From positions 57,496,866 to 57,560,865 of the forward strand of contig CM037871.1 in the NCBI GenBank assembly GCA_021292105.1: DNA of 64,000 nt, read 5' to 3'. Positions 5,981 to 64,000 of the stretch are shown in pieces; within the stretch, counting starts at the first letter, position 1; each line of letters opens with the position of its first letter. The position numbers and the translations under genes are program-made. The stretch comes from Anadara kagoshimensis. Taxonomy: Eukaryota > Mollusca > Bivalvia > Arcoida > Arcidae. The notes below the pieces were generated by a model that saw only the letters and a list, made by a program, of their open reading frames with translations, was not told the origin of the DNA and did not search any database.

Positions 5981-6191
5981 CAGTACATTCCCCTGTCAAA
6001 CATTTTAACACTAATCTCGTAAATAAGTGACGAATATACAGCTCATCTTGGCCCCCGTAAGCTATATCTACAGCTTTTTGGCAGCTGGTACCTATCTCTC
6101 GGCAGAGACTAGGTATCCATATCTCGGTCACTCTGAAGCCTAGCCTTGATGCCATTTTTGTCAGCTTAGTGTTAAACTTTCGACAGGACTG
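5981..6191. mobile_element. Short TIR element (family A), 211 bp
   Basis: The left end CAGTACATTCCCCTGTCAAA and the right end, inverted, CAGTCCTGTCGAAAGTTTAA are flanked by TA at 5979-5980 and 6192-6193. The interior keeps the family's TCTATATCTC/GGCAGC words. Confidence 0.8.
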
Positions 6192-6193
6192 TA

Positions 6194-6909: not shown

Positions 6910-7502
6910 CAGTAGAGACCTGTCGAAAATTAACCGTGAAGAAGCTGATGAAAAGGAGTGACAGCTCGGCTGCCGAGTGGTCGATATATCAATAGCTAGC
7001 GATCGATAGATAGAAAACAGCTGCCGTAAAGGGCTGTCGAGGTAACGATAATGAGCTGTCGATTTGACACTACTCAGTGTTGGAACCACTCTGTTTTTGA
7101 CAGTGAAATAATCTTTATTTCCATAGAAAAACAAATACATTTAAATAAAGATTGATATTTTTCACATAGTTGTATGTGCATCGGCGATTGTCATAAAGTA
7201 TTTCTGTAGAAAGGAAAATATTGCCGCTATATGGATTTTACACGGCGAAAATGGCGATGTTTACACTGGAGGTGATGTCCTTGGTGACGTTTAACGTCTT
7301 ATATGCAACAGAATCCGCAATTTGCCTTGTTTTCCAACATGTTAAAACCCCATAGCGCCAACGTTTTACCCTGTGCAGATATATTCTAGGCGTATCGCGG
7401 ATGATTTTCTACGGGAAAAAAAGAATATTTCATTGTCACAAACAGAGTGGTTCCAATAGTAATTCGTTACCTTATTGTTAAATTTTCGACATGTCTGTGG
7501 CG
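6910..7502. mobile_element. Short TIR element (family A), split by another TIR element
   Basis: The left end CAGTAGAGACCTGTCGAAAA follows TA at 6908-6909. A family-A right end (GTTAAATTTTCGACATGTCTG) lies near 7476-7497 with TA at 7503-7504. The roughly 380 bp between 7079 and 7459 are a separate element inserted in it. Without that insert the length fits other copies. Confidence 0.65.
7079..7459. mobile_element. Non-autonomous TIR element nested in family A
   Basis: Inverted ends TTGGAACCACTCTGTTTTTG (7080-7099) and the complement of TGTCACAAACAGAGTGGTTC (ending at 7456). The interior of about 330 bp has no coding frame. A target duplication is not clear, so the superfamily is undetermined. 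Confidence 0.65.
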
Positions 7503-23000: not shown

Positions 23001-26000
23001 ATTACATATTATAACAGTTTTAATTTCACAGCGCTATACGGCAGTTTCGGAATACAATTCCTCATCAGTAGAGCTTTTTCCAAAATTGTACAACCAATAT
23101 TTTCCCAAGATGTTGAAAAGATATATAAAAGACCTAATTTATATTTCACCAAATTTAGCTAAGGAAATACTTTGCAGTAGGGAGTAAACATAAAGTGGCT
23201 AAACTTACTGTGTCTGTCAAATCTGGGTTTGCTCCTTGTTTGATCATCACATTTATGATGGAGTCTTCTGGCATAAAGAGATAGGCGTAATGCAAAGGCA
23301 TTCTGTCAAGCTGAAATATTGATGTATCAAATTCATTTTAAATTTGTTATAATTGTAATTCTTAAAAATTTAGGCAAAAACAGATAAACGTAAGGCAAAA
23401 CGTAAGCTAAACTATAGATATATTACATATAATACAAGTTTGAATTTTACAGCACTAGACAGCTGTTTCGGAATACAATTCCTCATCAGTAGTACTTAGA
23501 CCAAAATTGTGAAACAAACAAAAAGTTTATATCAAATTCATTTTGATATACCTTGTTGTCAATAATTAAAATGAACGTGAAAAAAACAGGTTTTGGCTGA
23601 AACAGTTTATTTGAACAATGTTTCTTAAATAGCTTGCTTGAAGGAGGTTACTTTGTTTTATTCATTAATGTGTATGGTCGTTTTAAAAATATCATAGAAA
23701 TTAAAATTTACATGTTTACTGTAATTAATTATGTAAAAGCAGTATAAGTAAATGTAAGAATAAAATCGTCTCTTTTGCAAATTTGAGAATATATTTAATG
23801 TTGTACTTACGCTATCACCAAGATTGAAAATGTGAGAACAGTCCTCCATTAAATACTGGACAATTTCCTTCTTGCGACGAAGTAATGCTTTGTGTAATAA
23901 TGATCGACCACATCGGTCACGAACATTGCTATACTTTTTACATGATAAAAGTTTGCGTACATCTTCAATATTGCCGTCCTCTATAGCTGTGTATATTCTT
24001 CGTACGTATGCCTTAAATCAAATAAATTCAGATTTGAAAAAAAGAAAACAGTTTGTTTTGGATAAATGTTATGATAAACATATTTTGTTTAGAAATGGAG
24101 TAATCTGATAATGTTTGTTGTAATGCTTCCCCGTGTAGAAAACAGCTGCATGAGCATCAATGCTTTAGAAAAAATGTTATAAAAATATTTGACGGGCGAG
24201 AATCATGACCATTAATGTGAAACCACGCACCTTCGCAATATGGACACATATATTCTGCATTTCATTTTAATTTACACAATATTTTACCTTAAAAAAAATC
24301 AGATAAATATTTTGCTAACAAAATTTTGATCGCCTTTATAACTACATGTATTTCTAAAACTGAAATATTTATATTCATTTATTTCTGTGAAAGCACTGGA
24401 TTTTTAAATGAAATATTAACAGAAAAACAATGGAAAAAATGTTTGTGTAATTCGTAAGATTTTTTTTCAAAAAAATTGCATTTCACTGTGTATGTTATAG
24501 AGAAGCACACACAGAAAAAATTCCGCAAAAATATTGATAAACTCCAAAAGACAGCAACATGTTAAAAGAAACTATTGTTCGGGATCCGACAAATCGTTAC
24601 ACGGATGAGATTAGTATCATTACAATATTTTATAACATTTTATCTCTTTAAAACAAATAATAGTTAAACTCAGAACTTTTCATGGGTGATAAATTAACAT
24701 ACCTGGATTGCTGCTGTAAGTTTAATTATTTCGTAAATTTGACGGGTACTATGCTTCTTTGCAATATCAACCATGGTGCGCTTGGAATTGTCTGTAATAT
24801 CCAGTAAATGGTCATAATTGTGTAAAATTAGTCTTTCAATTTCATCAAATTTTTTGTCCTTGACTAGTTTAATTATATATTCATCAATGCACTTGATACA
24901 GTGTTCTTTTTTATGTTTTTCAGCAAGATCTCTGGCGGTCTTGCCTTGTCTATCTCGTGCAGCTATATCGGCCCCATACTGCATCAACAATTTCATTGTT
25001 TGTTCCGGTTGATCATGCAAAACACATTTATGAAGTATTGTATGCCCTTGCGAATCACGTGCGCTTAAATCGGATCCTTTAAAAACTCTTAGTTTTATTC
25101 TTTCATCCCTTGGAATTGAATTTCCACACACCAACTGCAATAAATTAAAAGTAACATGGTAAGACAAAATCGTCACAATAGCATTTGTTCTTTTTGTTTA
25201 ACATTATTTTTAGAATACTATTTGGCAGATAAAGGCAATTAGGATAGAGGGTGAAATTTGCGCTCTTTACGCCAACAGATAAGGGTCAATAGCTATAAAA
25301 ACGCTGACATTAAAACTATGAACCCACAACGTAACAGATTAAAGCCAGTGTGATCAAAAACAAGCTAAAACAAAACCCACAAAACGAATTAAAAGCAAGA
25401 CAATGTCATACTATTGAATCATTGTATGGTATCTTTTGTCCATATTAAGTCATATCTATTCATGACTGAAAGAGATATGAATAATTATATTATTATTATT
25501 ATTATCCAACGGAAATAAAAGTTCTTCATACGAAATGAACATTTATTAGCTTATACACATAATTCAACTTAATCCTCTATTACAACCTATAATGCTAAAC
25601 AAACGCCTATTGTAGTGGGCATGTAGGAATAGAGGGAAGACACTTCGATGCCCAAACTTTGTAAGATAAAAGATGCACGAAGGTTGGTCCAGTTGCTTTA
25701 ACCATTAACAAATTCTTTTTGGCTATAGCATTATTTTCTATTTGTTTTAATTTTTGTTTACTGCTAGATACTGCGAATTTGGGAATTTGAGATCAAGATG
25801 AATAATATGCTTATTAAATAGATAATAATAAAAACGAAATCACCATAAATAAAACTCATGATTGCAGAAAGATTTCCCTTATGTCTACTACGATATGTTG
25901 ATCACCAAAACATTGTAAACAATGCAACAGTTGACACAAATCATATCTAGTAATTCAAAATTTAGACAAAAATTCTTTGTCATTTTTTTTTCTAAAGCAT

Positions 26001-29479: not shown

Positions 29480-32400
29480 TGCAATTCAGTAATTATTATA
29501 TATCAATTAATTTATTTATTTGATATTTGTAATTTCATGTTGATTTATATATTGCGATACTTTATATTCAAGGAGACTGGTTTATATAAGAGTTTCACTC
29601 TTGTTCCGGAATCCTTTATTGTTTGTATCATGTATGTCATCAAAATAAAGTATTGTTTAAACTAACAATATACAAAAACATATAATCGGATTGATATTAA
29701 TAATATCAAAATGAAGATATTATTAACATTTATGTAAATGATATATCCCATTGTATCCTAACAAACTTTAGCATTTTATTAAGATTATGGTTGCCCTTTC
29801 GCACAGTATAATAATAATTGCATATTTATTATATATGATATCAGCCTTCAGAAATATTTAATAAGATACAAAACCCATTTGAACAAAACTCATTCTCCTC
29901 CATATTATAGTTTCCATGGCAACTTATAGATTAAACAAGATCCTTATTATGAATAGATAAAAACTTCAAATTTCATATATATATTTTATTTTTCGCTGTT
30001 CCTTTGGTGACTGCACTTCATCTAACACCTGGTAACCATGACGTAAAGCATACGAATTCAACAAACATTTTGAAAAAAAGATGTAAAAAAAATAAAGTTA
30101 TCAGAATACAAAAGTTAAATATATTGAGTCACCAGGATATGACGTCATGTCTAAATTTACTCGAACCATTTCCAATACTTTTGGTTTAATATACTGTCAT
30201 TTGAATATGATAAATGTCTGGCATTGGATACCTGTCAACTGCAGATCTTTGTGATAAAATTACCTGGTTTAAATTTGTTGTACCAGTGTTGCATTTCTTC
30301 CCAACCATCAGGTTTTTCCGTTATAAGAACATCCTCTGCAGTTTTCCCATCGTTGTTTAAAATGGCAGTGTCAGCACCACATCTAAAACACAAAAACAAT
30401 TCAATTTAAAAAAAGTGGTATATTTTTTTTCATGTAACAATAGTTCTACATATTGGTTCAGTATGTGTATGTAACATGTTTTCACATGCACGTTGCATCA
30501 GTTGTAACACTGCCTTTTTACTGTTAGTACAAGTAGCAGTTTAACTATGATATTTTGAAACACTGAAACCCCCCTGACGTCCATGCTGATCTGTGCATAT
30601 AACCATGACAAATTTCATTAGAATTACCATTTAATGTATAAGAATACTTGACTAAAATGATATATTCAAAATTAGCATTTGGCAACAATTAGCACCTGAC
30701 AACAATTAAACATTAAAATTAGCAAATGAAAAATATACTATAAAATTAGCACATGGTGACCATAAAACATTCAAAATTAGCACATGACAAAAACGAAAGA
30801 TATAAAATAATCATTTGACAATTATACATGTATATTTTTGTATTTTTTTTTTTTTTTTAGTTTTATTGTATTCATGCTTCTATTCCTGTTTAATGCTGGC
30901 TATTTGTTTATTTGTTGATATGGAATTCCCATTTTTTACAAAAAAACGAATAAGTAGCGGGTATTCCTTTTTTTTGAGAAAGTAACTATGCACCCATATT
31001 TTTCAATTTAAAAAGAAGTTTTTGACAATTCCTGCATATAACAATTGTCTTACTGGAACGACGGAACTGAAAGACCTTTAACAATTGTCTTACTGGAACG
31101 ACGGAACTGAAAGACCTTTAACAATTGTCTTACTGGAACGACGGAACTGAAAGACCTTTAACAATTGTCTTACTGGAACGACGGAACTGAAAGACCTTTA
31201 ACAATTGTCTTACTGGAACGACGGAACTGAAAGACATTTAACAATTGTCTTGCTGGAACGACGGAACTGAAAGACATTTAACAATTGTCTTACTGCAACG
31301 ACGGAACTGAAAGACCTTTAACAATTGTCTTACTGGAACGTCGGAACTGGAAGACATTTAACAATTGTCTTACTGGAACGTCGGAACTGAAAGACCTTTA
31401 ACAATTGTCTTACTGGAACGTCGGAACTGAAAGACATTTAACAATTGTCTTGCTGGAACGACGGAACTGAAAGACATTTAACAATTGTCTTACTGGAACG
31501 ACGGAACTGAAAGACCTTTAACAATTGTCTTACTGGAACGTCGGAACTGGAAGACATTTAACAATTGTCTTACTGGAACGTCGGAACTGAAAGACCTTTA
31601 ACAACTGTCTTACTGGAACGTCGGAACTGAAAGACCTTTAACAATTGTCTTACTGGAACGACGGAACTGAAAGACCTTTAACAATTGTCTTACTGGAACG
31701 ACGAAACTGAAAGACCTTTAACAATTGTCTTACTGGAACGACGGAACTGAAAGACATTTAACAATTGTCTTACTGGAACGACGGAACTGAAAGACCTTTA
31801 ACAATTGTCTTACTGGAACGACGGAACTGAAAGACCTTTAACAATTGTCTTACTGGAACGACGGAACTGAAAGACCTTTAACAATTGTCTTACTGGAACG
31901 ACGTCGAAACTGAAAGACCTTTAACAATTGTCTGACTGGAACGACGTCGGAACTAAAAGACCTTTAACAATTGTCTTACTGGAACGACGGAACTGAAAGA
32001 CATTTAACAATTGTCTTACTGGAACGACGGAACTGAAAGACCTTTAACAATTGTCTTACTGGAACGACGGAACTGAAAGACATTTAAAGAAGTTTAATGC
32101 AACTGCCATTAACTGATTAAGGATAATTTTAGTACACTACCTATGCAGCATTTTTAGTTAGAATTTTTTTAGACTAATCCTGCATATGGTAATTGCCTAA
32201 CTGGAACCACAGAACTGCTAGACCTTTAAAAGCAGTTTATTAATCGATGTGACAACCATAAAATGATTAAGGATAACTTTGAGATAGCGAATGGTTTGTG
32301 TGGATTTTTTTCTAATGAAATGATCTGAAATGGTAGGAAGTAAACATAGAAATATTACAAATGTATTATTTACGTAATTAATTCAGATGTACACCAATAT

Positions 32401-35400
32401 CTGTGGATACATTATGTATACTTAAATAGAGGCGGAACTTAATAATCTGTTGTCATGGTGATAATACTACAAACATGTAATAATATACATTCTTATTTAT
32501 TACAATATCAATCATATATATATATATATATATACCCTGATTCATGGTTGCTGCTAGAAATAATGGCGTCTTAATGTATAATATTAATTTTAAGAACAAA
32601 TGACGTATACTAATATGGTATATACATGTATATATACAATACAGGCCTGTCGAAAGTTTATAATGAATTAGTGCCTATAAATCAGCAACTCTTCTGGGCT
32701 TATCGTTGGCTATATTTTGACAGTTTTTTGGCTGATACTGTATATCTCTCCTTCATTAGTTATCCATATTTCGTCCACTCGTCAGCCGAAATTCGACTCC
32801 TTTTCTTTAGCTCGGTGTTGAACTTTAGACCGGTCTGTACTGTAAGCATTATGCATAATAGTCTCTATATTTGGCAAAGGAATATATTATTATTTTCTAT
32901 CATAAGCCATGCTTCTATCTCCTTTGTAAAAGTTATATCTGTTTGTTTTGTCTTGGTGAAACGCGTATTCATTTCGATTACCACTTCCCGATTCCATCAC
33001 AATCGACATTAGCTAGCAACATGCAACCCAGCCACGCATTTATCGGTCATGTAGACTTGATTGGGAAACTATTAGCTACTTACTCAATATTTTGTTCTTG
33101 TTCGCATTTTTTTAAAAACAAAATGCAGAGAGGGTCATTTATATTGTTATAATTATGTTTTCATGGTCATTCAATAATACCAAAGAATAATATCGTGATT
33201 TAAGAGTATTTATTTTTTATGTCATGACTATTATTTAATATTGATAGTCGTCAGTATTTAACGAAACACGTTGTCGTGCCTGCTATAACAAATCAATTAC
33301 AAACTGTTTGTATATCAAAAGACTTGCTAAATATTTTATTAATTAAGAGAAATATGTATGTGTGTTTGTGGTACAAAATATGTATATATATGACGTAAAT
33401 AGGTATATAGGCATTAAGTATTCAGCTCTTGATTACATAATTAGTAGTATTTGTATAGGTTTATGGTTAGTATACTGTGTAATGGCCTTAATTCTTTATA
33501 AAAAAATCAAATGAGCGTGAAACAACCTTCTCGTTATAATTCACACATTGATTCAGCAAAATATGAAGGATTTCTCGTTCTGCTTGTGTTTTAAGTGTAG
33601 TGTTGTGCATATGGTCTAAGTACATACGTACAAAAACAAAGGCTGAAACATCCTTTATGTGACATCGGTGATTGACTGACAGAATGTTGCTGCTCACCAA
33701 ATAGACGAATTTGAAAATGGTCTCGGTACAAACACCCCAAAACAAAGGTTTAAACGTCCTTTGTGTCGCTGGACATGAAACGGAAGAATAATAAAATGGT
33801 CTCGGTACAAACACCCCAAATCAAAACCTGAAGCATCCTTTATGTGGCATCAATGTTAGAAAAAAGAAAAGGTTGTTGCTGGACATCAAACGGAAGAATT
33901 TAAAAATGGTATAGCTACATACACACCAAAACTAAGGCTGAAACATCCTACATGTCATATTAGTGACTGACCGAAACAGTTATGAGCAAGATTGTCGCTG
34001 GACATAAAACGGAAGTGATCTCGGGATATAAACACCAAAACAAAGGTTTAAACGTCAGTGAGTGGCGGACAGAACAAGATTGTCGCTAGACATGAAGCGG
34101 AATAATTTGGCAATGATGTCGGTACACATACACACCAAAACAAAACCTGAAACATCCTTTATGTGACATCAAAAACTGACTGGGGAAGTTATTAAATAGA
34201 AAAGGTTGTTGCTGCTGACCAAACGGAAGAATTTGAAAATTACACCAATACTAAGACTGAAAAATCCTACGTGTCACATCAGTGACTGACCAAGACAGTT
34301 ATGAGTCGCTGGACATGAAGTGGGAGAGTTTGAGAACGGTATCGATACATACACGGCAAAACATGGGTTTAAACATCCTTTATTTCACATCAATGAGTGA
34401 CTGAGAGAGTTATAAAATGAAAAATATAATTGCTGCTCCCCCAACGGAATAGTTTGGAAATAGTCTCGGTACATACACACCAAAAGAAAAAACCTGAAAC
34501 ATCCTTTATGCCGTAATGTTCAGTGACCGAAATAGACATACAATGACAAAAAGTGTTTCTGATCATGAGACGGAATAATTTGAAAACGGTAACTCTGAAC
34601 TTTTATGTTCAAATTACAAAAAAATGTGTGTTTACCACGGGCTGTGTTCGTTTTGATTGTTGGTTAATTAAGAATATTGTTTGTAGCTTTAACATAAACT
34701 TGAAACAAAACTAACTTACCAAGAATACTACACAACAAATAAAAGAAATCACAAAAATACAAAAGAAAACAAGGTAATGCTCGTAACATACAATCCATCA
34801 CCAATTCACTCTGTTTCTACTTCTGCTTAACAGTATTAGAAGATTCCTGGAAATAGGCACTATGAAATGATTTTGGGGCTGATAAAACGATATTTTACAA
34901 TAGTAAATTAAATAGTGTGCAATGACATATTCAGTAAAACCTTGTTATAATGTTCCTCGATACCTATAACTTTGTTACATAGATTATTGCCAAAGTTTTC
35001 TAAAGTCCCAATGTTTTCCTCGATTTATCGCCAAAAATGCTGACGATGAATGAAGGTTTTACCGTATCTATATTTTTCTCAAAACGGTTTGATTATAAAA
35101 CAATATATCAACAAATTTAGTTGAAGCGTGTACTTGATAACAACAAATGAATCCACGGAAACATAAAACAATAAAAGAAAGACAAAAGCAAAAAATAAGA
35201 AGACAGGGCTGAATCATAACAAAAACACAGACAACTGATTATAGACAGGCACTGTTCATCAAAGGATGCTCAGTATTGCGGTTCAATTACTTTAGTGGTT
35301 TCCATTAATCGCAATTATTGTATAAGCAGTGGTGCATAAACAAGCATTTATTTCTGTATATTTTTGTAAAAAAAAAGTTTTTATGAATTAGTAAACCATC

Positions 35401-38400
35401 AATCCGGCACGGTTATGTTATATATAAAAATAATTCTCTTTTATAAGGTAAATCTTTTATAGGGAATATTGGTTAAATAATATCCAGTACATGTGTACTA
35501 CATTGTTTACATGAGAACGGTCGATGCACTTAGGAGTAATAATCAGATCCCAGTCGCAAAGTGGTCCCATTACTACAGTACATGCCTGTCGAAAGTCATA
35601 AACTAAGCTAACATTGTAGCACTGAATTGGCAGTTAAACTTGCCCGCCGTTGCCTATATCTTGTCGATTGAGTGCTCTGTATCTCTTGGCAGCTTTTTGG
35701 GCACAAGCTTTCCATATCTCGAATACTTGGCAGCTAACCTTCGACATTTTTGTTAGTTTAGTGTTAAACTTTCAACAGGTCTGTACTGAAATTCCAAAGA
35801 CAATATAATGAAGACGTAACGGTTGACTGAATGACCGTGCCCAGTAAATTTGCTTGAGATTACAGTTAGTAAATATTGAATAAAAAACAAACATACTAAC
35901 CCATGGCCTAATCACAATCCAGAAGCAAAGTAAAAACTTTGGAACTAACAATTCAGGTTAGACACGTGAACTTCCACCAGGGAAGTGAGGCCGAGTGCTC
36001 CGGAAGGGTAAGCATCTCCTGTTTAGCTAGCTACACCCACCACATGAACATATTTATTTTGTTTTAATCACTTTCGACAACAAATCACAAATCACTTCAA
36101 TAAAGGAGTTAAAATCTCATTCCCGTTGCTTCTCTTGACCACTGTCACATATCGAATCTTAACCTTATATCAACATTTAAAAAGAAACATATAGTATTCA
36201 ATAATTCACTAATTTGCACTTTAAGATAAATCTTTATTTGCAGCTGTAAAACATGTATTTGGTAACAGCCAACGCAACCACGAGCACGAGACATTACAAG
36301 TTAATAATAGAAACAACTAAAAAAGACAAGATAAGGAAAGACAAGCACATAAAAGGACAACTGGTGATGAAGTCCCCGGCTTTGGACGGGCACTTGAGTG
36401 AATTTTACATGTGCAGTGATGTGGTTTTAATACTACTATTTGAGGACACTAACCCTCCCCTAATTTTACAACCAGTGATCCATCAATATACACATTTAAA
36501 AATTAAAAATTAAATCTAGTTTTAACAAACAATCAAATAAACTAACAAGCTGTGTTTGTAAACCTAGTTTAAAATATATATCGAATCCCCTTTCAAAGGC
36601 CTCCTGAGATTTTAATCAACAGTTATATATTCTATTGTTGACCTTGTGTCCTTACGTTAAATTACCAAATATCTAGTTATTTCTGTAAAACTTTAAAGGC
36701 ATAACTAAAACGTTAAAATCACGGTATATTTTACTTTTTAGTGGTAATTATTCTCGAAAGATACTTAAAAGTAATTGGAACTCTCTAAGATGACAAGGCA
36801 CAAAATTAAATAACTTTACATTTTAGCTTTTACAATTTAATTTCAATAATATGACCCCACCTTATAAAATATATGGCTACCTTGATAAAATCCAGTTTTT
36901 AAGATCGTACGAATTTTAGCACTTTAATGTCAAAAATGGTCCTCTCTACTAATATTATTTCACGGCTTTATAAGGGTTTTTCTTAAGCAAAATATTAAAT
37001 AACGTTACATGGTTAATGCTAGTTTTAAGTATACTCTGTGGACAGTAGAGCCGGGTGTCCTTGTCTCTGTTATCCTTTTACAAGTGGTGCTTCAGAGTTT
37101 AGTCAATTTTGAAACAGCATCTTAATTATGAGCCACTCACAGATTTGAAGTGGTGTGGGGTACATATCGCATCAAATGTCAAGTTTTGGGGTTCGAATTT
37201 GACCATAAAAGTCATTGATAGTGTTATTTATATATTCGCATAAGTCTGTTTTTCTAGATCTTACAGCAAGTATCGGTTTATCTTTTCTGGCGTTTTAATA
37301 GCCAGGTCCGACGTTTCAAAGCTTTGCTAGTTTACCGAAAATTAAAAAGGAGTTAAAATATCATACAAAAATTTTTTTAAAAAATATATACTGATATTAG
37401 TAATTCTATGCAATATGTTTCACAAAAGTGAAAAATGGCGACTGGAGATACAAATTTTCAGTGTTAAATTGGTTGTGCTATCCGTGCTTTGAACAACCAT
37501 ATCCAAGAAATAGTTTCAAAATTCTGAAAGAAAAGTAGAATTTTTACTTGATTAACATATATAATCATAATTTTATGTTTTATTTGAGAAAATTGTAATT
37601 ATACATTGGAGTTAAGTATGAAACTAGATATAAATTAATAAAATAGTTGTCATTTTTTACTTGAGCGAAACCAAATTCGAATTGGGAAAATGAGCTTTGA
37701 TTATAGAATTCGTTTTATAGAATAAAACTTATACGTATGTAAATATTTCATAAAGATTGGAAAAATAGGACCAGGAACAAAACGAGAAAACACAGAATAT
37801 CGAGGAAGCTGACAGAATATATAGATACAGTCAAACCTGCCTTAAAACCCACCTCTATATAAAGACCACCTGACTTTGAAGGCAACTTTTACCCCAACTA
37901 GTCTTTGAACATATATATAAGGATCACCTGTCCATAAAGGCCACTTTTCTGGTTCTCAGGTGGTCTTTATAGAAAAGTTTGACTTATATAAACAGTGTAG
38001 ATAATAAGTGACATTCATTACAAAAACCATTCAATTACACTCATGTACACTTGTTAAACTAAGTTCAAAGGTCAGGAACATTTTTTTTCAGTCGGGATTA
38101 AAAACCATTTTTTCCGGCCGTCTTTTTAAAACATGTTTTATATAGTTACAGCAATTGTTTCATGTGTAAATTTTTTGTTTAAAATTTATCTTTCTTTTCT
38201 GTCACATACGCACTTCTTACGATTTTTTTAAATAGCATGCATATAATACCACTTCCGGATCAGAAATAAAAACATTTATATACAGTAGACTAGGTCTATT
38301 GAGACCAGTAGACATGATATACTCATGTAGACTCTGGCGATCAGTGCAGACACGTTAAAGTCTTCAGTATTGTGGTTTTTCTCTTACGTACAGGAGTGAC

Positions 38401-40413
38401 AGTTAGGGTGAGACAAGTTCTTAATACATAAATAATGATGTCAGATCTAGGTAAACTCGCTAACATACTTCATTAACTGATAAAAATATGTAAAATAAAA
38501 GGAAACAGAAAATATGTACTTGTCAACAGTCAGTACAACCAACATATAAAATAAAAACTACAGAAAAAGAGTATAAACTAAAACGATACAAGAGAAGACA
38601 AAGAGAAAGCATTGAATGATAAACATCCCGACTCCTGCATATCATGATAGATTATGTTGACTGTTGTTGCTAAAACCTTTTGTAGTAAGCTGCAACCAAT
38701 ATATCGCCAGAGCTCAAACTAGTATTGGCATGGGGAAGTAAGAATACCATTAACGAATGATAACGAATGATACCCACTGATGAAATTGTTTATGGAAAGC
38801 AGACCGTATGATTCTTCATTGTTTATCAAAATTAAACAGACCTTTACAAAGTTTTGTGTTTAGTTTCATAAACATTTTCTTAATTTATATTTTTGCAGTG
38901 AGTTAGGAAAACCTTATACAATTTATGTTAATACAACTAACTGCCCACGATTTTAACACGGGTAAGGTCCAAATGTGGAAAGGAAATCCGAGAACCAAGG
39001 ATAAGGTTCAAGTGTGAAATTGAAAACTGAGAATCACGGGCTAGGTCTAAGTGTGAAAGTGAAATCAGAGCATCACGGGCTGAGTGTGAAAGGGAAAACT
39101 GAGAACTTACAAAAAATCACCTGCTTGTTAAAGCACGTGACCCATTGCCTTCTCACATTCGAAGGTTTTAATAGTCATATTAAGCCTTTGCATTAGATGT
39201 TTGTGTAGGTAGATGGATCACATGGTATTGTCAAGATTGTTTTACTCAGTTCGAGGCGATAAGCTTAGGTATGGTGACGAAACAGGAATGCCCAGAGAAT
39301 ACTAAAGACCTTCGAAAGTTGTTGTAGCAACTGGCTGTATTAATCTCTCTTGAGGACTGATCCGAACGACCATTTCTAATCACAAAGGGATGTCTAGATT
39401 TCAACAATTGCCATTTTGATTACTAGTATAAACTATGTCTGATCGTTTTTACAGTCCAAAACTTCCGAAATCTATGCATTGCTTGGCTTGGTGCTTCTAG
39501 TTTTTGCATTAACATGCATTAACATTAACATACATTAACATTTGCATGTTCATCGTAACAAAATAAATTTTACAAGACTGTCTTGCAAATACTTAACTTA
39601 ATAGATAAAGTTTTATGTATAGTTTTTGTATCTTTTTATATTTTATTCTGTCATGGAAAATATGGTTTCCTATTTTTAAAAATCAGTTTATTTCAATAAA
39701 GTAATCTTGACCTAATTTCCAGGGTTCAGTGTATGTACAATTTCTTAATGAGTAAAACACAACGGATATGGATTTTAAAAGAATACAAGTGACATTTTGT
39801 ATCCAATAATCAAAATAAAGGAAAGACCTTTATGAGATTTTGATACGATAAGGTTGTTTTTACTTAGTTTTTACTCCTATAAATAATGTCATATTCACAT
39901 CAACAAGTTGTGATAATAAATTGTAACATTTACAGTACAGACCTCTCGAAAGTTTAACACCGCTTGGCTGTCAAGTGGCCGGGATATGGTTGATAAGTTA
40001 CAGAGATAAAGATAGCAGTTGTCGAGATATATAGGTAACGAAGGACGGAGATTATCTGCTGATTCGGTACTAATTCGTTTGCCTAGTTTATAAACTTTGG
40101 ACAGGTCTGTCTATAATTCTGTGTCCTGTTATCATCTCATTAAACTTTCCCGGAATCACAGCTTTTGTTCGTCATAAACAGGTGTTATCTATGTCAAAAT
40201 CACAAATTAATGGTGTAATGATTCCACATTTTTACACTTTTAATTATTCTAAATCGCAGGTGTATGTGAAAGTTCGCATACTGAGGACTCGTTTTTCCTA
40301 GTTTGTTAGTTTCCAAGGTCATATTTAAAATCCTTTAAATTATTTGTATAAATCACATCAATTTTCTCATATATTGTTGTACGTGTACCGTGATGCCACG
40401 GGGTCATCAACGA

Positions 40414-47038: not shown

Positions 47039-50000
47039 AAGACAAAAATACAGCTTGAGAGTCCAATAAACTTTTAATTATATCGTGTATTGCTAAAAAG
47101 ACTTTTTAAATGGGAAACAACCCCCTTCATAGTTTTATACAAAAACATTGAATCAGCAATATGACTTTGTGGTAGGAAATTGCGGTCGTTTTTAAATCTT
47201 CCCATGATCTGGCCTGATGCATGACGTGGTCTGTCATGAAATCATATATCGGCAAAAAGCGTAGCTACTAAAGAAGAAATATAGGCATACATTCCATGAA
47301 ACAATACTTTAATTTATTTACCAATTAGGCTCTTAACCGAGTCATACTCATTGCGTGATCCAGACACTTAACAAATACACCACCCCGTTCAAGTGGTCCA
47401 AACTGTTTATACCAAAGTTGTGGACAACAACTAAAAGGAGGCTGCTACCCAGATTACACATATAGATGATATTATGTCCATATTCTATATATAATTTAAG
47501 TCCATACAAAAATCAATAAATCTCCATCAGACATTGATCAAAATGATCATCTAATCAAGTTCTAATAAACATGAGTGAATCTGGTGGTTGCCATGTTACT
47601 AATTACTCTTTCGTCATGTGGTCAGTTCTATATCTACAGTATATAGCCCTGTCCAAGGTTTCACACTAGTTTGAATTATATATAACTAGTACCGACAGCC
47701 GCTTGCAGCAGTTGTGAACTATCCTTGGTAGTTTTTTTACGACCATTAGGAATCCAAAATTCAGCAACTTGGCATCCGTACTTTGACTTTTTTTCGTTAG
47801 TCCAGTGTTAAACTTTCGACAGGTCTGTACTGTAGTTGTTGCCTGGATATCAGAAGGACAGAGAGATGCAGACACAGAAATACCAATCATTTAATTGACG
47901 AATGTCCATTAGCGTCGCAGGTTAACAATAACGTGTAGTCTACGATACAATAGCATATGCAAGCTATTATAATTGTTTTATTTATTAAGATAAAACAGAG
48001 AGAAAAAAACACGATTTGGTGATTCTACCCACGAATCCGGGCACCAATTTTGCGAGAGAGAGAGAGAGAGAGAGATTAGGTGATTACCATCTCGCGAAAA
48101 AATTTGTTTTACTTTGCCAAATTGTCAACCAATGAATTTAAATGAAGTATCTTTTCATTTCTTGTAATATACAAAATATTTTCGATTCATTGTCACACTT
48201 CTCAAATTATCTTGGTCTTTCGAGTGATACCTGCAAATTCACCATCTCGCCTCAGCTCTTGAAGAAGCCAACCAACAAATATAAATACTTTTTCTTTACT
48301 TTCTATGTACATATATTACATTTTCGATTCATTGTCATATTTCTTACTCTTTATCAGGTGATGCTACATTTATTTTCAACTATTTTAACGAATTTTGAAG
48401 GAATGGATTAATTTTTTAAAAAAACGAATCTCATACAATGTTAATGCATGTTTCAGTATGTAAACAGGAAATTACATTGTAAATGTAACCTAACACTGCA
48501 CTGCATACAAATGATCATCAATAATGCAATAAAACATTCAAGCTACGAAAATCCCCATATATGTGATATATATTTATTATAATTAATGAGAAAATAACGT
48601 GAGGTTAAGATTTAGGACGACAAAGGCATGTAGCAGAACGATTTTCTCGTATGAGACACAGTATTTTATTTTGTTTTCGCCATAAAAGGAGTCTGACTTT
48701 TTACTTAACTATATCGATAAGATCATTTTGAAAAGTGGGTTTTTTGTTTATTTTTGTAGTCTTTGTCCCTTGTGTTTAAATATTGATGTGAAAGGATAAA
48801 CCGTGTTTTATGGACCGGAACCATACAACTTATTATGTAATCCAAAAACCGATACAACATCTGGTTTTGTTGCGGAAACTGCGCGTAAGGACATTTTATA
48901 GCGGGACATTCAGCAACTAGTAAATATGGCCCCAGTTTCAAAATCATTCCTTAACTAAGATTTTCCATAACTCAAATTTAGCCAATTATGGCGAGTCTTT
49001 TTTAAATACGAATAAATATTTTTTTGTCAAATTAAATGCAGGTGTCATAAGCATAATATAATTTTAAAATTACACCTTAAATTCACCAATATCTGAACAA
49101 TTAGCAAAAGGTTTGAAACTTGCCAGATTTAAGTTAAGGAATATCTTAGTTAAGAAATGGTATTGAAACCTGGCCCTGTCCCTACGATGAGTGTTCGTGA
49201 AAAAAGGTACAATATCATTGAACGAGGATTTAAGAATTCAGCTGACATACACATGTACATAATGCACATATCAAGATACTCAAAACATATCTGTAACCAC
49301 GTAAAACTGATAATAACGTTTATTGAAAAAAGTCCGAGAAAAGGTGTAAGTTTACAGATATCAAAAACAATATATCATTAGAATCATTAAAAGTCATCCG
49401 AATATTCCTTGATTTAAACAATAAAATAAAATCATATCTTGACATTGACACAGCTGACAAATTTGTTTTACAAAACAAACATTTATTAGCAAAAGGACAT
49501 AGTTGTTGTATGCTCATTTTCTTCTAGAGCTGAATTTTTAACCTATATTTTGGTTTAATATGCAGTTTTAGTGACCACGTAAAACATGTTTACAAGCCGT
49601 CTCGATACACTGCCACTTAAATAAACACAAACATAAACAATAAGGAAATGGCATTAAAGATTTGGATTTTGTAAAAGTTAAAATTTTAAAGTTGACAACT
49701 GCTTTCTGATTCCCATGCTATCTCAAAGATTTAGAATGATAACCTGTTGGTTAAAGTCCTAGTCGTACCAGGTAAGTTGTGTTTTTTTAAAATAAAATAA
49801 AAACTACACGTTTTTTTGGTAGAATTTTTTTTCAAAAAAGCAAACAGTAAAATATAAAGAGTACACAATGTGTTATAAACTTGAGACTTTTCTTACACAA
49901 AGAAAACTATGACTGGTCTTTGTGTTTTGTTCTTTCTGAGTAAACTTAAGGATATTTAAAACCATAACAGGTTCTAGGTCATGTTTTAATTTCACGTTTG

Positions 50001-55919: not shown

Positions 55920-56108
55920 CAGTAGAGACCTGTCAAAAGTTTGACAATCAGCTAACGAATAACTGCCAATTGGGCAGCTCATCTTGATCCCTCGTTAGGT
56001 ATATATCTTGACATTTTTTCTATGGCTGCTATCTATATCTCTCGACAGCTTTCAACCACAAGCTATCCTTACCTTAACTAAACAACGGCCAAGTTACGAC
56101 TCCTTTTC
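55920..56108. mobile_element. Short TIR element (family A), left part
   Basis: CAGTAGAGACCTGTCAAAAG after TA (55918-55919). The interior has CCTCGTTAGGTATATATCTT (complement AAGATATATACCTAACGAGG), the segment closest to the 31-bp satellite. The right part is not found beyond the SINE that interrupts it at about 56109. Confidence 0.7.
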
Positions 56109-56395
56109 AGACCTAAGACTTGAAAGCGGGTAGTCACATTTCTTTTGCCAAGCGCTCGGCATTACGAAAAGAAACTCGCGATCAATTCTTTCTGATGTGA
56201 ACTTAAGATATACGAGACTCAGTGTAACGGTGGCTGTGGTGCGATAAAGAACCCTGCTGTATAATACCATCAGCGCAACCCACATGCAAAATTTCTGCAC
56301 CTTCGCCTATACCTGGCGATGCTTCAATATAAGTGAAATATTCGTGACTTCGACGTAAAACGCCATTACTCCAGTCAACTCTCTTTTTCATGTAG
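56109..56395 (+). mobile_element. SINE body, 5'-truncated, inside a family-A element
   Basis: Matches the body of the SINE at 718-1059: GACTTGAAAGCGGGTAGTCA, AGAACCCTGCTGTATAATAC, ATATAAGTGAAATATTCGTG, to CCATTACTCCAGTCAA. The Pol III head is absent, as expected from incomplete reverse transcription. Open frames on the minus strand are not genes. Confidence 0.8.
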
Positions 56396-58595
56396 ACTTG
56401 GTGGTCTATCGAAACCTTTTCTTGATTAACCGGACAAACCATATCAACTCTCAATTTTATTTATTAGCTTTTCGTCAATAAAACTATGGAATATTTTCAT
56501 TAACGAAACACAATACAGATTTTATACAAAATTGCAAAAATCCAGGTTTCCATTTACCCGAGACATTCTAGTTTAGAATTAAAAGAAGGCGTCGAGACGC
56601 CCAATTTTTTCAAACAGATAAAAAAAAACAAATTTCCAGATACTAAACATGAACTTGGCAACGCTATTCTTCTATTGTTATGGGGAAAATATTCAAAAAA
56701 TCTACGATACAATGGTAACTATTGGAATTAGATGATTTTTTAATAAATGTTATTTGTTTTAAATGCGAATAAAATGTAAATACGACACAAAATGTTAACG
56801 AACAAGTCAGCTATTCTAGGGTAGAAAAGACAGAAGATAGAAACATATCAATAAAAACATAACAAATAATTGGTTTAAAACATCAAAATATCAACAAAAA
56901 CAAACTGAAAATACACATGTAAACGCTATTTAAAAAATATAAAAATAACAATAAAACTTTATTGATTTGAAATAAATAATAAATATCAAAATATGAAAAT
57001 AAAACACTAAGTTAAATTGATATAAATATAGCGGCATTATTACAGAAATGTTGTAAAATAAAACTACTGGAAGATATGTTTTATCGTTCAAGTTAAATTT
57101 AAATAAATAAGGATAGAATACGTCTTTGAAATATATTTCTTTGCAAACATAGTGCTTTAATCAATCTACAGTATGCCAAGGTCTATTTTAAATTTTTTTT
57201 CAAAAGAAAAAAATCCGAGAAGAATGGTAAAATATTTGTTTTTCTATTTTCGTTATATATACAGTATCCACTATAATTTTAACATTGACAATAGATGAGG
57301 ACATTTTTATTAAGGATAGTGTCAACAGTTTTAAAAAAATGTGTTCGTGAATTTATTTATCATATTTATACATTTATACATTTATTTATAAAAGTCATGG
57401 ATATTTAATCCATCAACGTTTTCTTTTTTCTAAAAGACAAGGAATGCCAAAAATATAATGTATGTATTTCAAAATGCTGTATATATACATGTATCAAAGT
57501 AAATATCTTTGATATTAATAAATATCGCCAATGATTCCCAGTTTTCTTTCACATTAAGGACATCACAAGAACTGCGAGACATGTGCTTTGGACAATAGAA
57601 AAATCCAAAATTTTGTTAATTAATACAAATCTAGTACTACAAAGTGTTATCTTTTGAGGTTTCAATTGAATGGAATATCAAATATATACTGCTATACATG
57701 AACAGAACCCATTCGTTTTACATATTAACTTCAAACAAGCATTTTGTCCAAAAACAGACGACATTCGCTTAACATAGTTTTAGCCGAAATTCGAATTTAA
57801 ACGGTTTGTTTTAAAACCTGGATTTCAGACAAACATTCATTTAATCGTCATTGTTTGAAATCACGAAATATTAAGTTAATTTCATCTTAATTTTCAGCAG
57901 ATGTCCACAACATTAATCAACCATGCATATTGGATATCTATTTTTTACCGGAATATAAGCGGTTGTCCTGAAAGTTATAGCTAATTAATTTTGCATAGCC
58001 TTTTATGAGAACAAAACAAATTAACATGAGGTATGAATGTTAGATTTTATGCACGCAATGTACACTTAAAATGAACAGTAAAAATGTGAGACAAACAATT
58101 TGAAATGATTCTATGCCCCGGATACAATTACCAGAAAACCCGACTCCATTTTACCATGAATAATCGGACAAGTCACGTGGCCTCGTGTTGGGTTGATATC
58201 ACCATCGTTTCTACACGTGACTTGGCAACTACAGTGCAATTCGTAGAAAGACAACACTATTTTTAATCACATGACATGATAAAATCACATTATTATTACC
58301 TTAAACGTTGTTCATCTTCATCAATAAAATTGCAAGTTGATATTTAAGTGAAATTCAAAATAATGAATTAATGTACCCAACAACAGCTGCATTACGTCTA
58401 GGCAGGGTATGCTACTTACAGACGTCGTATAAAGTATTAAAGGATCTATTTACCTTATTTTTTTTTAAATTTAGAATTAAGTAATACGGTTTATTATAGG
58501 AGGCTGCTGTAGAATCTCAGGTGCATTGCGAGATAAGGAGGAGTGAAAAGCTCGGAACACATGTGTGGTAAACATAGTCATTTGTTTTTATCATT
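56396..58595. other. No gene or repeat recognised
   Basis: Very AT-rich. The only structured signal is a pair of inverted CACGTG sites at 58171-58221. Confidence 0.55.
58171..58221. promoter_or_regulatory. Pair of inverted CACGTG E-boxes
   Basis: AAGTCACGTGGC at about 58170-58181 and, inverted, CCAAGTCACGTG at about 58213-58224, some 40 bp apart. GTCACGTG is bound by bHLH-ZIP factors in animals. No gene start is visible near it, so function is open. Confidence 0.35.
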
Positions 58596-59056
58596 GCCTT
58601 GTTAAATCTGGAGAGGAGACTCTTGCCACACAAACTATTCAACTCCGCATTCAGGTATTTCTATGTTTGTTCTATCCCTTCATATTTTTAAATTCAGGAG
58701 ACTATGTGAATGTCACATAAATTATACTAGTGGGCTTGGAATAAAATATACGAACGATCATTCAAGTTCGACTTTATATATGGACTAATATCTCACTTAT
58801 GACGTCCACGACAAACAACATTTGAAGCTAACAAATGTGATGACTTCAATTTTTCTTTATTAAACTGCCCTCTTTCCTACAGCAATATACCTACTTCTCC
58901 TGCTTATGGTGTATTTGTTTTACACTTAATACATAGAGCTTGTTCCCACTATGGGCCCTATATACAGAGCAGGCTGCTAACAAATGTTGATGGCTGGGGA
59001 ATATTGCAAGCCTTTGCTTATAAAGACGATCAAAAAGTTTTATTGCAGTCGCCATG
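58596..59056 (+). mobile_element. Penelope-type RT relic
   Basis: Heavily diverged match to the RT C-terminal half: TTGCCTTGTTAAATCTGGAG, CTTCTCCTGCTTATGGTGTA, ATATTGCAAGCC and CAAAAAGTTTTAT occur in the order of 19265-19720. No 3' tail follows. Oldest RT copy in the window. Confidence 0.75.
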
Positions 59057-59865
59057 CGTATTCGCGACGATATATGCTCTCTTTACCTTCTTACAGCCTT
59101 GTCAGTTTAATGCACTTGCCTTAATTTATTTAACTTTAAATATCCTGTTCAGTTGCAGTTCCAAAAATACTTTTAGAAAAATATACAATTGTTTTCATAC
59201 ATTGATAATTACGATGCAGTGCTGCAATAGATTTTACTAGAATACATGTACATTAAAAATGGTTAGAGATTGTCTATGTGATAATGTTAATGATATTAAA
59301 GTGCATTGCAGATAATTTTTTTGTACATGCATTTTTTGTTCAAAATTCTTCAAAAAAGGAATTTTGCGGTACAAATGTACTTTTATTTTTAACGTAAAAT
59401 GTTTGACAATTCAGGTAATAATTATTGCCCTTTTCGTTTTAATTGCAAAAATGAAAATAAAAAACTTATTGAAATTAGTTCTCAGTATAAAATTAACACC
59501 AACTTTTGTTCGATAAAAAATATATAATGAATTTGAAATTTGTCATTTAGATTTAAAAATTAAAATTATCACAATTCTTATTAAATTTATTAGCTACACT
59601 GATACATCATTAAAGACGAATTCATTGAAAATAGTAAGTAGATGTCAGAAAATGGCATTGGACTTTAATCAATGGACACAAAGGGAAGTGCTTCGTCATC
59701 GCCTCTTACTGTGTATGTAATTGAGCAGCACTATTATGTTATATCGGTCAAGTAAACTTGTAAAAACTGTCTTATTCTTTTGATAAGCGTTTATAATCTT
59801 TTTTAACATTGTAGCTGAAAGAAATGTGTGTTGGAAATAATCAAATCTGCTAAAATACACCTCAA
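59057..59865. other. Nothing recognised
   Basis: AT-rich sequence with a chance open frame at 59004-59240 that starts inside the RT relic. Confidence 0.5.
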
Positions 59866-60432
59866 ATAAGTACTCAAAATACGCCAAAACTAACTTCGCA
59901 AAATACGCCAAAACAAGCTTCACAAAATACGCCAAACTTAAATATACAAAATACACCAAAACTAAGAACACAACATACGCCAAAACTAAGAACACAAAAA
60001 CACCAAAACTAACTACACAAAATACACCAAAACTAAGAACACAACATACGCCAAAACTAAGAACACAAAATACGCCAAAACTAACTTCACAAAATACGCC
60101 AAAACAAGCTTCACAAAATATGCCAAACTAAAATTTACAAAATACACCAAAACTAAGAACACAACATACGCCAAAACTAAGAACACAAAATACACCAAAA
60201 ACTAACTACACAAAATACACCAAAACTAAGAACACAACGTACGCCAAAACTAAGAACACAAAATACGCCAAAACTAAGTACACAACTACACAACATACGC
60301 CAAAACTAAGTACACAACATACGCCAAAACTAACTTCACAAAATACGCCAAAACAAGCTTCACAAAATACGCCAAACTAAAATTTACAAAATACACCAAA
60401 ACTAAGTACACGACATACGCCAAAACTAAGTG
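59866..60432. repeat. 24-bp minisatellite with higher-order structure
   Basis: Units of about 24 bp, AAAATACGCCAAAACTAAGA then ACAC, in several kinds: TAACTTCAC, CAAGCTTCAC, TAAAATTTAC and CTAAGAACAC endings. The AAGCTT-bearing unit occurs at 59915, 60106 and 60355, and the units around it repeat in order, giving a higher-order period of about 191 bp (249 bp the second time). Confidence 0.95.
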
Positions 60433-60537
60433 TGCACGAAATTGGAAAGAGGACACATATCAATTACATACTGAGAACAGCATTGCACAAAAACGCTACC
60501 GGAGCATTGAGCAATATCATATTCAAAAACAAATGTA

Positions 60538-60672
60538 CTAATCTATGTCCAAATAAAAATCACAAAGCAAAGTAAAAATTTTGAAACTAACAGATAGACT
60601 TCCACCAGGGAAGTGAGGCCGATTGCACTGGAAGGTTTAGCACCTCATGTCAAGCTAGCACACCCGTTTTGG
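60538..60672 (-). mobile_element. Solitary Penelope-type 3' tail
   Basis: AATCTATGTCCAAATAAAAA, CTTCCACCAGGGAAGTGAGG, CTGGAAGGTTTAGCACCTCA, AAGCTAGCACACCCG; inverted. Confidence 0.8.
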
Positions 60673-60769
60673 TGTAATTTGACAACAAAGTTTTATCCAT
60701 TAGTATACTTCATGGTATTTTGTTAGTCTTAACCATTCGAGTTTTTATAGTAAGTTGTGGACAATCAGC

Positions 60770-60905
60770 AACAAAACAACACGACACGTATATCAAGCCA
60801 TCAGAGAGTAAACAACGACACGTATATCACGCCATCAAGCCATCAGAGAGTAAACAACGACACGTATATCACGCCATCAAGCCATAAGAGAGTAAACAAC
60901 GCCAT
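60770..60905. repeat. Short minisatellite, three units
   Basis: ACACGTATATCACGCCATCA, AGCCATCAGAGAGTAAACAA, CG; units of 36-45 bp, the first lacking one CGCCATCAA segment. Confidence 0.85.
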
Positions 60906-61728
60906 TCAATAATGAATCTTCGTGACACGTTCAGTGTGAAAAGTGCCAAATATTCAGTTTATCCATTACCTTCTTGAAGCATTGCTATCTCCAAAGTTGT
61001 TCGCCGCTGTATCACGTGATACCCTCTAACGTTTGTGCGGAACACTTATATCCAATTGATATCAGGTCGTATGAGAATATATTTTCCTGTAAAAAACGAC
61101 GCTATACCGGAAATTGGCGACGTTAAACGGTATACATGACGAGGTACACCGTCGAACCCCATTCAGTTCTGAATAAACAAAATAGTTTCATGTATATAAT
61201 ACTAAATCACGGTTTTGCTTTTTATGCAAATGACGTGCCAACTAACACTTTACCTCTATATCGAACACCTTACAAAGGTGCGCCCTAGGAAAATATTATA
61301 CCGCGAGTTGAATTTTGTGGAAGAAGGCATTTTTCGTCAATCGACAAGTTTAATGTTTTGTCCTATTCGGGACAAAATGTATGTTATGCATGCAATTGAT
61401 CGAAAGGGTGAAAGTTATATGATTACCAGAATAAAGCATAGATGGTGAAATCCATATCATACCGGGGGTGGAGGGGGGGGGTTGAAGGGGGGGGGGGTTC
61501 TTAAATATGCCATCTGATATGGGTTTACAATGTATTATTCTATACGGATCTAAATTTGCAGATCCCAAGATAACAGGATTGTCAGTGTTTGGGCGTCAGA
61601 AGCAATATAACCTACTTACTGCATTGATGATGGAATTAATTAGCGTCACAACATAAATCATAAATCTATAGTCCTGATACAGAAAGCTTGTAGATAAGAT
61701 GTGTAATTAAAACTGTGTTTTTCATCTA
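60906..61728. other. No gene recognised; G-run cluster at 61463-61498
   Basis: A stretch with runs of 5, 9 and 11 or more G lies at 61463-61498 and could form a quadruplex. The open frame at 61215-61448 has no recognisable domain. Confidence 0.5.
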
Positions 61729-61850
61729 CAGATAGTTTAACACTGAACGAAAAGGTATCAAAACTAGGTTGTCTAGTGAGCCAGATATGAATAGGTATGG
61801 TTCTAAAATAGAGCAATAAGCTGTCATAGAGCTGCCGAGAAATAGCTAAC
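61729..61850. mobile_element. Family-A TIR element, left part, leading into the satellite
   Basis: TA then CAGATAGTTTAACACTGAAC (end eroded or shortened), then GCTGTCATAGAGCTGCCGAG, words shared with other family-A copies. The sequence passes without a break into the 31-bp array. Confidence 0.65.
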
Positions 61851-64000
61851 GAAGGGATGATATGAACTAGATATAGCTAACGAAGGGATGATATGAACTA
61901 GATATAGCTAACGAAGGGATGATATGAACTAGATATAGCTAACGAAGGGATGATATAAACTAGATATAGCTAACGAAAGGATGATATGAACTAGATATAG
62001 CTAACGAAGGGATGGTATGAACTAGATATAGCTAACGAAGGGATGATATGAACTAGATATAGCTAACGAAAGGATGATATGAACTAGATATAGCTAACGA
62101 AGGGATGATATGAACTAGATATAGCTAACGAAGGGATGATATGAACTAGATATAGCTAACGAAGGGATGATATGAACTAGATATAGCTAACGAAGGGATG
62201 ATATGAACTAGATATAGCTAACGAAGGGATGATATGAACTAGATATAGCTAACGAAGGGATGATATGAACTAGATATAGCTAACGAAAGGATGATATGAA
62301 CTAGATATAGCTAACGAAGGGATGATATGAACTAGATATAGCTAACGAAGGGATGATATGAACTAGATATAGCTAACGAAGGGATGATATGAACTAGATA
62401 TAGCTAACGAAAGGATGGTATGAACTAGATATAGCTAACGAAGGGATGATATGAACTAGATATAGCTAACGAAGGGATGATATGAACTAGATATAGCTAA
62501 CGAAGGGATGATGTGAACTAGATATAGCTAACGAAGGGATGATATGAACTAGATATAGCTAACGAAGGGATGATATGAACTAGATATAGCTAACGAAGGG
62601 ATGATATGAACTAGATATAGCTAACGAAGGGATGATGTGAACTAGATATAGCTAACGAAGGGATGATATAAACTAGATATAGCTAACGAAGGGATGATAT
62701 CAACTAGATATAGCTAACGAAAGGATGATATGAACTAGATATAGCTAACGAAGGGATGATGTGAACTAGATATAGCTAACGAAGGGATGATATGAACTAG
62801 ATATAGCTAACGAAGGGATGGTATGAACTAGATATAGCTAACGAAGGGATGATATAAACTAGATATAGCTAACGAAGGGATGATATGAACTAGATATAGC
62901 TAACGAAGGGATGATATGAACTAGATATAGCTAACGAAGGGATGATATGAACTAGATATAGCTAACGAAGGGATGATATGAACTAGATATAGCTAACGAA
63001 GGGATGATATGAACTAGATATAGCTAACGAAGGGATGATATGAACTAGATATAGCTAACGAAGGGATGATATGAACTAGATATAGCTAACGAAGGGATGA
63101 TATGAACTAGATATAGCTAACGAAGGGATGATATAAACTAGATATAGCTAACGAAGGGATGATATGAATTAGATATAGCTAACGAAGGGATGATGTGAAC
63201 TAGATATAGCTAACGAAGGGATGATATCAACTAGATATAGCTAACGAAGGGATGATATGAACTAGATATAGCTAACGAAGGGATGATATCAACTAGATAT
63301 AGCTAACGAAAGGATGATATGAACTAGATATAGCTAACGAAGGGATGATATGAACTAGATATAGCTAACGAAAGGATGATATCAACTAGATATAGCTAAC
63401 GAAGGGATGATATCAACTAGATATAGCTAACGAAGGGATGATATGAACTAGATATAGCTAACGAAGGGATGATATAAACTAGATATAGCTAACGAAGGGA
63501 TGATATGAACTAGATATAGCTAACGAAGGGATGATATCAACTAGATATAGCTAACGAAAGGATGATATGAACTAGATATAGCTAACGAAGGGATGATATG
63601 AACTAGATATAGCTAACGAAAGGATGATATCAACTAGATATAGCTAACGAAGGGATGATATAAACTAGATATAGCTAACGAAGGGATGATATGAACTAGA
63701 TATAGCTAACGAAAGGATGATATCAACTAGATATAGCTAACGAAGGGATGATATGAACTAGATATAGCTAACGAAGGGATGATATGAACTAGATATAGCT
63801 AACGAAGGGATGATATGAACTAGATATAGCTAACGAAGGGATGATATGAACTAGATATAGCTAACGAAGGGATGATATGAACTAGATATAGCTAACGAAG
63901 GGATGATATGAACTAGATATAGCTAACGAAGGGATGATGTGAACTAGATATAGCTAACGAAGGGATGATGTGAACTAGATATAGCTAACGAAGGGATGAT
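61846..64000. repeat. 31-bp satellite, about 69 copies, running off the window
   Basis: Unit GATATAGCTAACGAAGGGAT then GATATGAACTA, 31 bp, almost identical throughout. Variants are at few sites: AAAGG for AAGGG, GATGTGA, GATATCA and GATATAA for GATATGA. Near 63245-63700 a series of eight variant units (248 bp) partly recurs. The right end lies outside the window. Confidence 0.98.

Follow-up and report, generated by a model that had tools for sequence, protein, structure and literature searches.

How a satellite array begins is usually argued from arrays that are already finished, and the array at the right-hand end of the DNA stretch analysed here (64,000 nucleotides, hereafter the window, C15:57496866-57560865 in an assembly of 1.115 Gb in 36 contigs) raises the question of from what, and in what way, such an array has grown. 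From 61838 to the window end at 64000, on the + strand, Tandem Repeats Finder reports a period of 31 in 69.8 copies with 97% matches and 0% indels, the unit being AGATATAGCTAACGAAGGGATGATATGAACT. The array continues past the window and stops at about 64101; when the locus was fetched with its right flank (L009) the whole array came to 73 units (L009 704-2967), and at 2.3 kb the window array is a minisatellite by length. No sign of function was seen, and we take it for a tolerated mutation product. The first-pass annotation of the window had read it as a roughly 70-fold amplification of an internal piece, not of the whole, of a short transposon with terminal inverted repeats (TIRs), and this reading stands up to what follows.

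The array sits within a single copy of a miniature inverted-repeat element (MITE) of 223 bp that has CAGTACAGACCTGTC... ends and a TA target site, and it occupies the place where other copies hold a single such segment. By eye the element starts with a CAG at 61729, the very base that had been claimed for the start, directly after the target-site TA at 61727-61728 (a direct reading, no strand assigned). Left of the array stand TTTAACACTGAAC and GCTGCCGAG, the words on which the claim of a start within family sequence was built. The left arm (61729-61837, + strand) reaches to about consensus position 136, adjoins the array with a gap of 0 bp, and scores 76 against a shuffle mean of 18.9. On the other side the right arm (L009 2968-3022; 50 against 17.8, with 300 shuffles for each arm) runs to about 64156, just past the window, where the array is closed off by the family's right inverted repeat, followed by a TA, as read from the assembly and not from long reads. 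The 31-bp unit itself is consensus positions 137-167, at which 26/31 bases are identical in an alignment to a consensus that draws on 26 copies and not on every copy in the genome, and its score of 42 is reached by 0/1000 shuffles (mean 15.2, SD 2.5).

The left terminal repeat of the window copy is damaged, 3 bp standing in place of 16 bp relative to a sister copy (L010) on the same contig. The sister locus retains both terminal repeats, and there the element reads CAGTGCATCCCTGTCTAAAGTTTAACA ... 31-bp array ... TTTTGACTGGTCTGTACTG with a TA immediately outside either end (TA/CAGT...ACTG/TA). When the array of this sister is collapsed to one unit the element aligns end to end with the consensus (162/204 aligned bases). 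Its left arm minus the first 30 bp scores 56 against a shuffle value of 18.7 (0/1000) and its whole right arm 50 against 16.6 (0/1000 shuffles), the 25 bp of the right arm inside the terminal repeat not being significant alone (14 against 14.0, with 562/1000 shuffles as good). The reversed consensus, used as a control, found no match in the window at E 1e-3. We are highly confident that the array grew in place, by expansion of a single internal segment (137-167) in a non-autonomous TIR element some 223 bp long.

The consensus of this element was built from the 12 best matches of a draft together with 14 copies on contig C1 that were picked by exact terminal-repeat match and not by array; the composite copy L036 was left out, and L025, L026, L027, L029 and L030 gave no single element. 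The family termini are CAGTACAGACC, and the TIRs are of about 40 bp, consensus 1-40 matching 184-223 inverted. Single paired-TIR copies (the 14 on C1) measure 190-257 bp, short and without coding capacity, and a TA is found on both sides of 8/14 C1 copies, 6/12 best matches and the sister copy, the others being without TA on one or both sides. A terminal-repeat pattern allowing at most 3 mismatches gave 78,224 matches genome-wide and 0 for its reversed control, a number that is not an element count because some of the matches lie inside arrays. Short, with TIRs, a TA target site and a high copy number, the element is a MITE, and on account of the TA it probably belongs to the Tc1/mariner superfamily. 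The 31-bp unit is homologous to a part of this element that is single in ordinary copies, and the arms still bracket the array, which is how a MITE-derived satellite at a young stage presents itself.

Further family copies lie in the window at 5992-6194 (- strand, consensus 3-214, 79%), 32637-32842 (- strand, 1-223, 75%) and 35576-35788 (- strand, 1-223, 75%), with partial ones at 6910-7055 (+ strand, 1-152, 74%) and 47693-47832 (- strand, 1-136, 76%). Two more had been cited beforehand for an interior resembling the satellite unit, namely 55920-56108 (- strand, 38-223, 76%) and 39933-40110 (+ strand, 52-219, 72%, plus a terminal repeat), and the quoted words are indeed found in them, at the complement of 55980-56010 and in the copy at 40030. 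Among the other contents of the window are a 329-aa open frame (11636-12625) with a weak reverse transcriptase match (RVT_1, E 2.2e-6; 27.9 bits where the cut-off is 29.6) and a 160-aa open frame with ankyrin repeats (24694-25176; Ank_4, E 6.4e-8).

An autonomous partner was sought, without being found, among transposase genes, for which there are at least 150 places each of DDE_3 and DDE_1, by comparing the termini of 30 DDE_3 loci and 3 DDE_1 flanks. A pair of family termini flanks 0/30 of the DDE_3 loci (3/30 show a single terminus near the stretch edge), and a family terminus occurs in 0/3 of the one-sided DDE_1 flanks. Six of the loci read (L061, L063, L064, L066, L071 and L073) hold elements 1351-1375 bp long, which have CAGTGCTTGGCCATATATATTGG ends beside TA and match DDE_3; as partner of the MITE they were rejected because their ends differ.

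The 31-bp array itself is homogeneous: 41/73 units at the window locus equal the consensus unit exactly, mean divergence is 2.8%, and neighbours compared with distant units show no clear divergence trend. One 5-unit block recurs, and unequal exchange is not visible by way of block duplications. The sister locus, at about 55.775 Mb on C15 and 1.8 Mb from the window copy, carries 18 units, and unit types A, B and E are common to both. The flanks of the two loci are 98.1% identical on the left (790/805 aligned bases) and 99.1% on the right (1608/1623), and the left arms agree at 101/102 bases; the neighbourhoods also share arrays of 24-bp, 42-bp and 44-bp units, which by eye do not derive from the MITE. 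The duplication is of about 9 kb or more, spanning about all of the 9 kb read, with both halves on one contig; its segments include window 57963-61800 and L010 1-4145, and also L009 4626-6167. Because the flanks are this similar on both sides and the surrounding arrays are shared, the two 31-bp loci seem to go back to a single insertion, duplicated together with its neighbourhood, and not to two. With an array in both halves, the array would then be older than the segmental duplication, lengths of 73 and 18 units having been reached since.

Is this array a singular accident, or do other copies of the family do the same? A search with the 31-bp array gave other places of at most 76% match (among the best candidates scored), and 10 further array loci of the family that were read have related units other than the 31-bp one. 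Junctions could be judged at 11 loci with an array edge in the stretch read (L009, L010, L012-L020), the flank counts being made without L011, whose array fills its stretch, without the left flank of L014 and without the right flanks of L013 and L016. The gap between array and left arm is 0-8 bp at 10/10 loci with that flank (9 if L009 and L010 count once), the arm being incomplete at L016, where it starts from position 21, and at L019, where it starts from 63. On the other side, 7/9 loci tested (6/8 with the two sisters as one) have a gap of 0-10 bp between array and right arm, the exceptions being L018, where the arm is 157 bp away, and L019, where none was found. These arm counts cover loci of the core segment.

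Besides 31 bp, periods of 22, 24, 25, 26, 33, 35, 36, 41, 48 and 57 bp occur in arrays of the 137-167 core segment. Motif searches further found arrays of a left-interior segment, with periods 22, 25 and 41, and arrays of the terminal repeat, with periods 37-52 and mostly with a few host-flank-like bases in the unit. Of the units among the matches listed in these searches, 24/24 that were mapped match the consensus, with z from 6.0 to 21.7, which is no survey because the units were picked by motif searches among the matches listed; the 24 exclude L018 and several other loci (C1:31.5 and 31.9, C11:34.5-34.7, C14:58.0 and C15:7.2 Mb). That the 137-167 segment is a hot spot, and as such the sole explanation, was rejected because left interior and terminal repeat form arrays too.

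Copies with different unit numbers, which had been suggested for a check, were found: single-segment copies, a two-copy state and array loci with about 6, 18, 19, 62, 73 and more units all exist. Among 20 C1 places taken in order from the exact terminal-repeat matches, 14 are single paired-TIR copies, none with an array, and one of these 14 (L037) has a two-copy internal duplication of 32 bp (lag 32). At one other place (L026) the terminal repeat itself is arrayed; the remaining 5/20 are lone ends, composites, and nested or interrupted copies that give no usable single element. L026 lies with L022-L024 at C1 ~824760-827446, where period-43 terminal-repeat arrays of opposite orientation lie facing one another on the two sides of a short spacer, a structure like a foldback element grown from the MITE. 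On C11, between 34.51 and 35.52 Mb, many places with a related unit are spread over 1 Mb, and at L011 one period-35 array fills all 6 kb read; this may be a true satellite field.

To what extent tandem growth is peculiar to this family was approached by counting pairs of a 17-base motif 22-52 bp apart, in which design pairs count units and not events. The core segment gave 1225 tandem pairs against 2941 motif copies, the left interior 527 against 1900, and the terminal repeat 1693 pairs; the pairs listed fall into at least 8, at least 4 and at least 9 loci, respectively, among the matches listed. In the control 3 tandem pairs stand against at least 13,180 copies, counted with a 19-base motif in which the 17 bases are included; this is a thin control, consisting of one SINE-like repeat, called a SINE by eye, and not of another MITE. 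The repeat in question is tRNA-like by eye, was taken as a SINE inside a family copy (L030 121-683), and has the 13,180 genome copies by its 19-base motif; a SINE-like stretch also follows the family copy at 55920-56108, at about 56090-56360 of the window. A genome-wide tendency to tandem growth is made less likely as the explanation by this single SINE control. Some general tendency does exist, because the window holds other arrays that by eye are not derived from the family, such as a 26-copy array of a 40-bp unit at 31039-32087 (95% matches), by eye unrelated to the MITE.

Features that could make an element prone to such growth are present in its own interior. The consensus interior is self-similar, with 26 bp at lag 32 (score 18.5) and 17 bp at lag 33 (12.0), a maximum that 0/200 shuffles reach, and exact 9-bp words recur in it at lags 21, 22, 35 and 41. 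Arrays are found on these words, four with a period of 35 and one each with 22 and 41, and two more period-22 arrays lie on a 6-bp word. The 18 interior arrays available for comparison come from motif searches, among the matches listed, and so are no fair sample; taken as independent, 8/18 show a local repeat that scores at least 6 where the array lies and at the array's period, with 1.5 expected by chance (a number of 8 is reached by 0/5000 random draws), and 10/18 are without one. With one array per period and segment the count is 4/14 against 1.2 expected (P 0.025; mean score P 0.005), and if place is ignored P for the periods is 0.011 when all arrays enter and 0.12 when no period enters more than once. 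For the 31-bp array the consensus has no direct repeat at the breakpoints (2 bp at best), and of 43 lags lag 31 comes 19th; that this array is the common 35-bp duplication minus 4 bp is a guess. As a single strand the consensus is predicted to form a hairpin of almost its full length (-66.0 kcal/mol, z -13.5). Since the interior alone folds no better than its shuffles (z -1.3; the SINE, z -2.4), this hairpin comes from the terminal repeats, and any MITE would be expected to show one.

With an interior of short direct repeats and a strand that folds into a hairpin, the family may be prone to expansion. At short repeats, replication slippage or end-joining could produce a first tandem duplication, after which unequal exchange or more slippage could make the array longer and more homogeneous. 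For the family this is our best guess, because of the self-similarity of the consensus, the period matches and the hairpin; for the 31-bp array it is unproved. A transposase-made junction had been considered for the terminal-repeat arrays, whose units run TA/CAGT, and was dropped because the search pattern forces the junction upstream of position 6. The host-flank-like bases beyond the TA in most terminal-repeat units would fit a duplication after insertion.

Growth in place by local duplication has to be set against other origins. That array and element are neighbours by chance, so that the unit would owe nothing to the MITE, has nothing found in its favour, is refuted and hardly deserves credence, given that both arms bracket the array, that the unit fills the missing segment, and that the same kind of left junction recurs at 10/10 loci with a left flank. 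Were the array mobile, the expanded element itself having transposed and spread, its presence at two loci (among the best candidates scored) and the retention of both terminal repeats at the sister locus would be natural; the two loci nonetheless have flanks that are 98-99% identical on both sides and share the arrays around them, and the other places, with at most 76% match among the best candidates scored, have other units at the 10 such loci read. Spread by transposition is largely refuted for the 31-bp array and is very improbable.

A further rival follows the model related in a review for miDNA4, a frog MITE, in which the element captures a pre-existing tandem repeat and copies with a single unit are contractions. 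The degenerate repeat in the consensus interior (lags 32 and 33, scores 18.5 and 12.0, 0/200 shuffles) speaks for something of the sort, and because of it the founder may have begun with a small array. Against capture, the usual element holds the 31-bp unit as one single segment, and the period and sequence of this unit differ from those of the arrays read in other copies; likewise 14/20 C1 places are paired-TIR copies, none having an array of the 137-167 segment, and one place is a terminal-repeat array. Capture is a decidedly unlikely source. Rolling-circle copying of a small circle, returned into the element by homology, would account for the homogeneity of the units at the window locus (2.8% mean divergence, no clear trend between neighbours and distant units), yet in-place arrays with different periods in several copies need only local duplication, and we regard a circle as unlikely. 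Local duplication within the element, at the place where the array still stands, is the reading retained here.

Bivalves are known to carry short, non-autonomous elements with a tandemly repeated core, the CvA/pearl elements, as far as the available accounts describe them. In pearl-type elements the repeated core is of about 160 bp and they stand near Helentrons, pearl/HINE elements having Helentron-type ends without terminal inverted repeats. The family described here is set apart from them by its TIRs of about 40 bp, by its TA target site and by unit lengths of 22-57 bp, and it does not have the Helentron-type feature. Tandem-repeat-containing MITEs of the clam Donax trunculus were reportedly described by Satovic and Plohl in 2013. 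A short non-autonomous element with a tandem core is common to these, to CvA/pearl and to the present family, to the extent that the accounts go.

The Xenopus miDNA4 (Scalvenzi and Pollet 2014, as related in the reviews PMC12628747 and PMC9659126) is a Tc1/mariner-type MITE whose internal unit is single or in an array of variable number, and for which capture of the satellite monomer is proposed, per review. The present family is similar in being a MITE of (here probable) Tc1/mariner type with an internal unit single or arrayed; it differs, as far as the reviews portray miDNA4, in that miDNA4 has one satellite monomer, and here several periods come from three segments of one family in which single-unit copies are common. 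Xstir, also of Xenopus (Hikosaka and Kawahara 2004), is a MITE with tandem-array and composite forms, whose repeats may derive from the MITE interior and for which, in the portion of the account available, two nearby elements folding together are proposed as mechanism. By contrast most of the arrays with read edges here are enclosed by the two arms of a single element, and direct repeats inside the element agree with some of the periods. In the foldback element Tetris of Drosophila virilis, as far as the source (PMC4079207) was available, it is the terminal repeats that become satellite arrays, to which the terminal-repeat arrays at C1:0.825-0.827 Mb are alike, in contrast to the window array, which derives from the interior. 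On these partial accounts the 31-bp array fits the known MITE-derived satellites (Xstir, miDNA4 and the bivalve repeated-core elements).

The terminal word CAGTACAGACCTGTC was not found in the literature searched, and a search by name and topic in titles and abstract openings, with subscription papers mostly outside it, found no description of this MITE family. Nor was a description of so many units, segments and stages in one family found in the literature searched, part of which was available only in extract. The breadth of units within one MITE family is the interesting part. It is quite possible, if a little short of an even bet, that the family is a general satellite nursery, in which every copy is a candidate by virtue of an interior that is already a degenerate repeat with many short direct repeats, in which many have independently arrayed the core, the left interior or the terminal repeat with some host flank, in which periods are largely set by the built-in spacing of words, and in which foldback-like structures come about through tandem growth of both terminal repeats.

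Overall the genome looks like a natural replicate series of satellite beginnings, with one-, two-, few- and many-copy states of several segments and periods in one genome, the arms often in place. Since these stages coexist in one family, control by sequence of the start site and the period of a satellite becomes directly testable. A caution also follows for this genome, where arrays may share one source even when their units differ. If the nursery reading is true, satellite birth in this genome would be predictable from the sequence of the element.
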